Origin: Bacteroidetes bacterium HGW-Bacteroidetes-16 | GTDB lineage: Bacteria; Bacteroidota; Bacteroidia; Bacteroidales; F082 | Direction of reading: 5' to 3' | Assembly (NCBI GenBank): GCA_002840975.1 | Contig: PHDN01000024.1 | Span: forward strand, 31,261 to 95,260 | Length of the DNA: 64,000 bases | Shown here: in pieces, positions 5,334 through 57,769 of the stretch | Layout of the letters: each line of letters starts with the position of its first letter | How positions within the stretch are numbered: the stretch's first letter is position 1 | The notes under the pieces: model-generated | The model's database searches: none | Told to the model about the DNA's origin: nothing | What the model saw: the letters and a program-made list of their open reading frames with translations, nothing else | Position numbers and translations under genes: made by a program

Positions 5334-5405
5334 GAGCCGGGCTAAAGCCGCAGCTCAATGGATAGCAGGATTGTTGAGCCGGGCTATAGCCGCAGCTCAA
5401 TGGAT
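5334..5405. repeat. Two direct copies of a 30-base palindrome-rich repeat
   Basis: Copies at 5334-5363 and 5376-5405 differ at a single base (GGGCTAAAGCC versus GGGCTATAGCC) and are separated by 12 bases. Each contains a small inverted repeat (GAGC...GCTC around GGCT-AA-AGCC). They lie in the gap between manA and the DAHP synthase gene and code for nothing. Confidence 0.85.
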
Positions 5406-5444
5406 TAGGGACTACATTAGCTGTTCAGAATTCTATGTTACTTC

Positions 5445-5465: not shown

Positions 5466-5510
5466 TAATTTTAGCTCACTTTTAACTTTAGCTCACTTTT
5501 CACTTTAAAC

Positions 5511-5675
5511 TTGAGTCCACTCCGAAAAGTCAAATACCCCTACCTGCCAACCGCAGGCTGGAATCCCCTAAAGGGGACTTTAGATCGTTCATTGATTTTC
5601 AACGAATCCCTTTTTAGGGGTCAGGGGTAAATGAGTTGAAAATCAATGAACACATACTTTTCGGAGTGGACTCAA
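5511..5675. repeat. Nested inverted-repeat element with two CCCCTAAAGGGG-type cores
   Basis: Outer arms TTGAGTCCACTCCGAAAAGT (5511-5530) and its perfect complement at 5656-5675; inner arms GTTCATTGATTTTCAAC (5587-5603) and its perfect complement at 5635-5651. Core 1 (5531-5586) holds TACCCCT...AATCCCCTAAAGGGG; core 2 (5604-5634), read on the minus strand, holds TTTACCCCTGACCCCTAAAA. The right arm is continuous over 5635-5675 (inner arm, ACAT, outer arm), whereas the left arm is split by core 1, as if one element had inserted into the arm of another. The outer right arm includes the stop codon of the DAHP synthase gene (5672-5674). Related elements are at 43271-43335 and 57409-57456. Confidence 0.9.
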
Positions 5676-6787
5676 ACTTTAATATTCAAACTTTCCCCCA
5701 CTTTCCCATTAAAAATCACCGTCTGTCTCCTGATGGATTCTTCATGCATCAGGCTTAGGAGGTTTTTCAGGAAAACCTCTTCCAGTCCGAGATGTGTGCC
5801 AATGGCCAGACGGTCTTCGATGATGCCGGCCCACCGTTTCATCTGCAGGATGGTGATGTCATTCTTGTTTTTGTACTCACCGATTTCATCGATGATTTCC
5901 ATGCGCTTAGCCAGGATCTGCAACAATTCGCCATCCAGCTTATCGATTTCGGTTCGTAGCTCTTCCAGCTTGTTTTCAAAGTCAATATTGCCACGCTTTT
6001 CGCGAATAACCAACTTATTGATCATTTCCTGCAAGGCTTTTGGTGTGATTTGCTGGGCTGCATCTGTCAGGGCCCTGTCGGGATCGAAATGGCTTTCGAT
6101 GATCAGCCCGTCCATTTCGAGGTCGAGGGCTTTTTGGGCAATGGATTCCAATAGATCGCGCCGGCCACAGATATGGCTTGGGTCGACGATAATGGGTAAA
6201 TCAGGAACCAGACGTTTGAGTTCGATAGGGATTTCCCACATGGGAGCGTTGCGGTAGATGGATTTTTCAAAATAATGAAATCCCCGGTGGATGGCAATCA
6301 TCTTGCGGATTCCCATGGCATGGATACGCTCAATGGCGCCCAGCCACAGTTTCAGGTCGGGTGAAATGGGGTTTTTTACCATCACGGGGATGTCTACACC
6401 ACGCAAGGCATCGGCAATGGCCTGCACCGAGAATGGATTGGCAACCGTTCGCGCTCCCAGCCAAAGGATATCCACTCCGTGCTTTAATGCCTGTTCCACA
6501 TGTGAGGCATCAGCCACCTCCACGGTTGTTTTCAGTCCGGTTTCCTGTTTCACACGGGTCAGCCATGGAAGGCCTTTTTCGCCCACACCACTAAATTCGC
6601 CCGGACGGGTTCGTGGTTTCCATAAGCCGGCCCTAAACACCGTTACTTGCGGTATTTCTGCAATTCTCCGGGCTGTTTCCATCACCTGAAACTCACTTTC
6701 GGCGCTGCATGGACCGGCTATCACCAACGGCTTTCCACCGGTGTTGAGCCAGGAATCCAGAGAAGAAATTTGAAGGTCTGTACTCAT
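5672..6787 (-). CDS. Bifunctional 3-deoxy-7-phosphoheptulonate synthase / chorismate mutase type II
   Basis: Catalyses the first step of the shikimate pathway (PEP plus erythrose 4-phosphate to DAHP) and chorismate to prephenate, the branch to Phe and Tyr. From the ATG at 6787: DAHP synthase domain about 15-265 with AGPCSAES (24-31), RAGLWKPRTRPGEFSGVG, GARTVANP and DPSHICGRRD; then a chorismate mutase domain from about 275 (FENKLEELRTEIDKLDGELL). This domain order is typical of Bacteroidota. An upstream in-frame ATG at 6802 is less likely because a -7-like TACTTTTG lies at 6792-6799, which would put the transcript start at or near the 6787 ATG. The stop codon falls inside the right arm of the inverted repeat at 5656-5675. 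Confidence 0.96.
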   Translation of the reverse strand: MSTDLQISSLDSWLNTGGKPLVIAGPCSAESEFQVMETARRIAEIPQVTVFRAGLWKPRTRPGEFSGVGEKGLPWLTRVKQETGLKTTVEVADASHVEQALKHGVDILWLGARTVANPFSVQAIADALRGVDIPVMVKNPISPDLKLWLGAIERIHAMGIRKMIAIHRGFHYFEKSIYRNAPMWEIPIELKRLVPDLPIIVDPSHICGRRDLLESIAQKALDLEMDGLIIESHFDPDRALTDAAQQITPKALQEMINKLVIREKRGNIDFENKLEELRTEIDKLDGELLQILAKRMEIIDEIGEYKNKNDITILQMKRWAGIIEDRLAIGTHLGLEEVFLKNLLSLMHEESIRRQTVIFNGKVGESLNIKV

Positions 6788-6907
6788 GGAGCAAAAGTAC
6801 ATTTTATTTTACGGCCCGAATTACCCGATATCCGTCTCGTATTAAAAATGCCCGGGTTCGGAATTAAACTATTTAAGCAATGATCAACACTACAGCAAAA
6901 TAGATGC

Positions 6908-43223: not shown

Positions 43224-43270
43224 TTTTTTGTTGATTTGTAATTATTTATCAGCAGTATTAATTTAATCCG

Positions 43271-43335
43271 CAAATCAACCTTTCCCTGAATCACCCTTTA
43301 GGGTAAGGGGTAAAATTCAGGGAAAGGTTGATTTG
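43271..43335. repeat. Inverted-repeat element with CCCTAAAGGG-type core (copy 2)
   Basis: Perfect 21-base arms at 43271-43291 and 43315-43335 around a 23-base core whose minus-strand reading is TTTACCCCTTACCCTAAAGG. Lies between convergent genes and could work as a two-way terminator, but the core is shared with the elements at 5511 and 57409. Confidence 0.9.
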
Positions 43336-43385
43336 ATTAATAAGTTGATGATGACCAGGTGGCTTTCGTTGAGAGCCACCTTTTT

Positions 43386-57319: not shown

Positions 57320-57769
57320 ATTTGCAAGGAGACGACAGGAATAGAACAAAGTTACAAAGTTGGTGTTTTTTTATTGATGATTTCCGGTCTAAAAAGGTAA
57401 TAGAACGATTTCAGCCACTTTTACCCCTCAATCCCCTAAAGGGGAAGTGGCTGAAAATCAGAACTCCCTTTAGTCCCGAAAGTGATCGTGATGGCCGCTG
57501 ATGGATGAAAACATGATAGTTAATACCCCATGCATCCTTTTCCTGTTTATTCTTGTCATGCTGGGGCAAAAGGACTCGACTTATATTAGCAGGAACGATT
57601 AAATTATCTTTAACATTTCATTAACAGAGGGATAAGGAATTATGCTGTTTCTTAGCAAAATATCTTTTTACTAAGGTGTGTATTAGGCACTTTAACCGAT
57701 ACCGGATGAATGTACAAAGGTGCCTTTTGCCTGTTAGTCAATTTTAACACCATAACTTAATTTTAACAC
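57320..57769. other. Divergent intergenic region
   Basis: 450 bases between the sigma gene and the 57770 gene. It contains the inverted-repeat element at 57409-57456 and an AATTTTAACAC direct repeat (near 57739 and 57757). The rest shows no gene; the promoter for 57770 was not recognised. Confidence 0.5.
57409..57456. repeat. Inverted-repeat element with CCCCTAAAGGGG core (copy 3)
   Basis: Perfect 12-base arms TTTCAGCCACTT (57409-57420) and AAGTGGCTGAAA (57445-57456) around a core (57421-57444) TTACCCCTCAATCCCCTAAA followed by GGGG. It lies between two divergent genes, where a terminator role is unlikely. Confidence 0.9.

Follow-up and report, generated by a model that had tools for sequence, protein, structure and literature searches.

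A nested inverted repeat in a Bacteroidales genome is very probably a non-autonomous MITE moved in trans, most likely by an IS1182/IS5-type transposase

The DNA analysed here, referred to below as the window, is the whole stretch of 64,000 nucleotides from contig PHDN01000024.1 of Bacteroidetes bacterium HGW-Bacteroidetes-16. Near its left end a nested repeat occupies positions 5512-5674, and its right end supplies the TGA stop codon (5672-5674) of a gene on the minus strand (5672-6802). The repeat is bounded by a left terminal inverted repeat (TIR), TGAGTCCACTCCGAAAAGT (5512-5530, + strand), and a right TIR, ACTTTTCGGAGTGGACTCA (5656-5674, - strand), and the unstranded sequence AACT stands on either side (5508-5511 and 5675-5678), recognised as a target site duplication (TSD) from the flanks and from the empty orthologous site described below. 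Between the TIRs lie, in this order, core 1 (5535-5576, +), which is composed of TACCCCT, an optional 20-bp hairpin (ACCTGCCAACCGCAGGCTGG), AAT and CCCCTAAAGGGG; the left arm of an inner stem, GTTCATTGATTTTCAAC (5587-5603, +); core 2 (5608-5629, -), which is inverted relative to core 1 and reads CCCTTTTTAGGGGTCAGGGGTA on the + strand; and the right arm of the stem, GTTGAAAATCAATGAAC (5635-5651, -). The perfect inverted arms reported in the preliminary description (5511-5530 with 5656-5675, and 5587-5603 with 5635-5651), and the two cores of opposite orientation between them, were all found. The same description took the stop codon within the outer arm as a sign that the arm had been copied from the local gene; this TGA is in fact the start of the TIR itself.

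The repeat has no gene of its own, and the single ORF starting inside it (5646-6257, +) runs antisense to the gene at 5672-6802. Folded as single-stranded DNA it reached -47.7 kcal/mol compared with -16.8 kcal/mol for shuffled sequences (z -10.7), which is far beyond chance. A search of the window against Rfam returned two tRNAs only, leaving the repeat unmatched, and it was likewise unmatched in plasmid and phage records. A little upstream, at 5334-5406, the sequence GAGCCGGGCTAAAGCCGCAGCTCAATGGAT occurs twice in tandem in near-identical copies.

The results of genome-wide searches showed that TTGAGTCCACTCCGAAAAGT is the TIR of a dispersed element of 143-175 bp, and that the inner 17-nt stem belongs to the same repeat. 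Copy numbers in the window genome were obtained by pattern searches, which gave 30 matches to the TIR of this family, named family A (reversed control, 0), and 25 matches to that of a second family, named family B (reversed control, 1); the majority of the TIRs of both families pair at a distance of 109-191 bp. Family A starts with TGAGTCCACTCCGAAAAGT and has the stem GTTCATTGATTTTCAAC, as in the window, and family B starts with TGAGTCYGGTCTAAAAAGGT and has the stem GATTTCAGCCACTT. The core sequence CCCCTAAAGGGG was found at 29 sites of the genome, against none for its reversed control; by reading of the printed flanks, 25 of these sites belong to families A and B and 4 lie outside both. The family A TIR is also present in three further genomes of the genus and in several of the taxonomic family.

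Two more core-bearing elements had been described in the window and are present, at about 57.4 and 43.3 kb. The former is a family B MITE (57378-57475, approximate limits, +) with the TIR TGAGTCYGGTCTAAAAAGGT and the stem GATTTCAGCCACTT/AAGTGGCTGAAAATC, truncated at its right end, with its core at about 57421-57444. The latter (43257-43349, unstranded), named type C, consists of the stem CAAATCAACCTTTCCCTGAAT/ATTCAGGGAAAGGTTGATTTG enclosing a CACCCTTTAGGGTAAGGGGTAAA core, and two more copies of it occur elsewhere in the window genome. The arms of all these elements had been considered specific to their loci. However, both arms of the 5.5-kb element recur throughout the genome, the outer one also in other genera, and the remaining two elements have recurring arms as well. 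In those other genera the family A TIR surrounds different repeats, ATTGCGAGCGGAGCGAAGCAATC, CCACGAAGGC and GCCACAGATTCACAGAT (L085, L088, L089, L099, L100 and L107), so TIR ends and interiors occur in free combination.

The nested arrangement had been interpreted as one copy inserted in another at this locus. The alignment of complete family A copies gave a different picture: the two-core layout was observed in all 11 complete copies aligned from the window genome and in the copy of genome G004, with core 1 sometimes degenerate, and a similar layout with a TIR of the family A type and another stem was observed in the elements of G012. One partial copy (L001) lacks both core 1 and the TIR at the core 1 end. 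Since the layout is common to all intact copies and to copies in other genera, it is the architecture of the family rather than a local event; if one core was ever inserted beside another, this far predates the window locus.

The optional 20-bp hairpin of window core 1 is absent from most family copies. It is G/C-rich, of the type CCTGCC...GGCAGG, occupies 5542-5561 in the window and was seen in copies L010, L012, L021, L060 and L076; in both MITE families its presence or absence falls at one point between two CCCC tracts. It looks as if it had been exchanged between families A and B. Stem pairing within family A is retained in 93.6% of cells, but compensatory changes were not above those of shuffles; selection on the hairpin inside family A is for this reason not shown.

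A 4-bp target duplication was exact at 17 of 22 intact copies and present within one mismatch at 21 of them (family A: 8/11 exact, 11/11 at no more than one mismatch; family B: 9/11 and 10/11), whereas permuted flanks led us to expect about one exact duplication per family of 11 (maximum 5) and about two in all. In G004, a genome of the same genus, the element is present at the orthologous site with the same TSD as the window copy. In G001, also of the same genus, the site reads as the uninterrupted sequence CACTTTAAACTTCAAACTTC and has neither arm, and G002 is likewise without the element at this position. We concluded that the window element transposed into its present site. Close to the empty site of G002 there is also a sequence resembling GAGCCGGGCTAAAGCCGCAGCTCAATGGAT.

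These data bear directly on the model of the preliminary description, in which a mobile core inserts and copies the adjacent native DNA in inverted orientation, so that arms would be locus-specific and one of the two would be native. The enclosure of a conserved core by perfect inverted arms speaks for this model, and a further point in its favour comes from family B, where long and short copies differ by a segment that holds a core-like hairpin and repeats the adjoining stem in inverted orientation; hairpin-mediated rearrangement inside elements thus seems to occur. Against it, the arms are conserved across loci, the outer one even in other genera, and the direct 4-bp duplication lies outside them. 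The comparison proposed at that time, of an orthologous empty site for a single native arm, revealed neither arm in G001, which refutes the model for the window element. We regard it as hardly tenable.

A likely source of transposase was found in a genome of the same taxonomic family. The sequence G024:C67 75-1905 is a 1.83-kb IS with the ends TGAGCCCACTCCGAAAAGT...CCTTATCGGAGTGGGCTCA and the TSD CTAA; its ends match the family A TIR and its duplication is likewise 4 bp long. Its transposase matched PF05598 (DUF772; 3e-11) and the IS1182 model NF033551 (1.4e-28), the latter with a score of 100 bits against a curated cut-off of 270. Because the transposase scores under this NCBIfam cut-off, IS1182 is the nearest model and the family name is only approximate, for which reason we call this IS "IS1182-like". 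What the MITE has in common with the G024 IS is the TIRs and not the interior. The transposase ORF (L125 225-1949) runs through the right end of the IS without a stop codon and continues in the flank as far as the contig end. At several broken contig ends of G005, an ORF start (M-F-K-K...) follows a perfect family A TIR, the pattern expected of a multi-copy IS. A homologue of the G024 transposase was sought in the window genome and its genus and none was found; present mobility in the window genome is therefore unproven.

Taken together, the dispersed TIRs, the 4-bp TSDs, the empty site and the IS with matching ends lead us to conclude, with a probability of roughly 0.94, that the 5.5-kb nested repeat is a non-autonomous MITE moved in trans, most likely by an IS1182/IS5-type transposase from an IS with the same ends. 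The features by which a MITE is recognised were found: the element is shorter than 300 bp, carries no transposase gene, has TIRs and a TSD of fixed length, occurs in dispersed copies with empty orthologous sites, and shares its TIR with an autonomous IS (G024:C67), although this IS is missing from the window genome. The MITE consists of TIRs of about 20 bp, one inner stem and a pair of G/C-rich cores in opposite orientation, and lacks a gene of its own. Its TIRs are most likely recognised in trans by a DDE transposase of the IS1182/IS5 type whose gene lies on a full-length IS with matching ends; this enzyme would excise or copy the MITE and insert it between genes, leaving the 4-bp target duplication. 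We infer that the transposase which moved the window element was of this type and that the inner hairpins are passengers that transposition does not require. The striking layout of nested arms is accounted for by a standard MITE, to which ends, a TSD and a probable partner IS can now be assigned. Searches of the literature by topic yielded no account of the family, and a search by sequence string returned a single, irrelevant paper on E. coli.

Two other origins were weighed against the MITE. The strong fold could also be that of a transcription terminator or RNA element of the host, the more so as 8 of the 21 copies with classifiable context lie between convergent genes; but 3 others are flanked by divergent and 10 by tandem genes (by a simple ORF-based gene call), Rfam did not match the element, TSDs flank it, and it is missing from the orthologous sites in G001 and G002, with the site empty. 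A host element instead of a transposon is thus very improbable, while the hairpin of the MITE may secondarily serve as a terminator. The alternation of hairpin units in orientation recalls repeats of the REP/BIME type mobilised by a RAYT (Y1) transposase, and genes with a RAYT domain are common in the genomes examined. Nevertheless, none of 30 PF01797 loci had a core or a TIR within about 1.5 kb, on which ground a RAYT/REP origin was rejected; in addition, a RAYT gene of the window genome has another repeat on its sides, and the element carries TIRs and TSDs, neither of which RAYT products are known to have. We give this origin just as little chance as the terminator. The RAYT gene in question (L156 1150-2240, G000:C26) has an internal stop and lies between GGGATTGGG ... 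GATGGAATTTATTCCGTCG, which is probably the true REP of the window genome.

The core itself extends beyond families A and B. When 84,980 species genomes were scanned for exact matches, the core turned up in 22 stretches, all from Bacteroidota and from several orders. It was present in 2 of 148 genomes drawn evenly from the phylum, namely the window genome and one other; a phylum-wide core was rejected on this sample in favour of a patchy one. Anaerophaga has about 100 matches to the 22-nt core, and in the elements inspected there the core is placed within another TIR, TGAGTGCAGTCTAAAAAGCC, and another stem. In G051 (Bacteroidia bacterium MS502-39) the core elements measure about 59-130 bp, many of them about 85, and have no IS1182-like TIR. 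Several TIR-less core pairs are also clustered in the window genome (G000:C11, about 61.9-62.9 kb; L006-L008). The preliminary view of the core as a conserved unit with differing arms therefore stands in so far as the core is found again with other TIRs and other stems, or with no TIR; the arms are not made anew for each locus.

Several core pairs of G051 are positioned in-frame in long intact ORFs, including those for CarA, MurC, RF3 and a prolyl-oligopeptidase-like protein (L250, L238, L239, L251, L268 and L269), and the peptides they encode include PLNPLKGTLPQHDEQTHSPNSPFRGLGG and KSPLGDLGV. The inserts in CarA and RF3 correspond to 28-29 residues missing from solved homologues, and that in MurC is similar but longer; the insertion limits are approximate in each case, since the native loops vary. 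In two further Bacteroidota the loop in CarA is a short one. In the same genome CarA runs into CarB, and MurG into MurC, without a stop codon (L264/L265), and the MurG-MurC read-through passes a repeated HSSPFTL stretch.

It is possible, though on balance doubtful, that the ACCCCTNAATCCCCTAAAGGGG core pair is an unnamed mobile palindrome of its own, leaving no TSD, which rides as a passenger in several MITE families of the IS1182 type, was captured by the window MITE and has entered genes in frame in at least one lineage, as Rickettsia palindromic elements do; such a reading is compatible with the MITE explanation of the window copy. It would explain why one 22-nt core, mostly in inverted pairs, goes with the differing TIRs of family A, family B and the Anaerophaga elements as well as with none, also in the window genome (C11), why it sits in-frame inside conserved proteins, and why elements with the family A TIR in other genera have quite different interiors. 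On the other hand, the TIR-less pairs of G051 showed no target duplication in a consistent register, no transposase is linked to the core, none of the 30 RAYT loci has a core nearby, and common ancestry of the MITE lineages could account for part of the sharing. That one small unit recurs in distantly related Bacteroidota, in MITEs whose ends differ, is the more interesting by-product of this work, and the in-frame inserts are a lead on the spread of short palindromes and their conversion to protein sequence outside Rickettsia.

Palindromic elements of Rickettsia (reviewed in PMC10969869) are inserted in-frame in conserved proteins, like the TIR-less core pairs of G051; the window family, in contrast, is intergenic, none of its 21 classifiable elements in the window genome lying inside a long ORF, and the likeness, across different phyla, is one of position. 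REPINs and BIMEs are likewise inverted pairs of small hairpin units, whereas the window family has TIRs and 4-bp TSDs and was associated with RAYT genes at 0 of 30 loci. The IS1182 family (NF033551; DUF772, PF05598) is the closest model, below its cut-off, to the likely partner transposase, and the IS1182-like IS found did not give rise to the interior of the MITE. The nearest known relatives in kind are BrickBuilt and MITE293, IS-derived MITEs of Porphyromonas gingivalis (PMC4596501), and MITECca01, an IS-derived MITE of Cardinium (PMC9769881): these too are short, gene-less, bounded by TIRs that match those of a full IS, multi-copy and mostly intergenic. The partner of MITECca01 is IS982 and those of BrickBuilt are ISs of P. 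gingivalis, whereas that of the window family is IS1182-like, with other TIRs; and what sets the window MITE apart from these Bacteroidota MITEs is its interior, a nested hairpin with two cores that is common across families.
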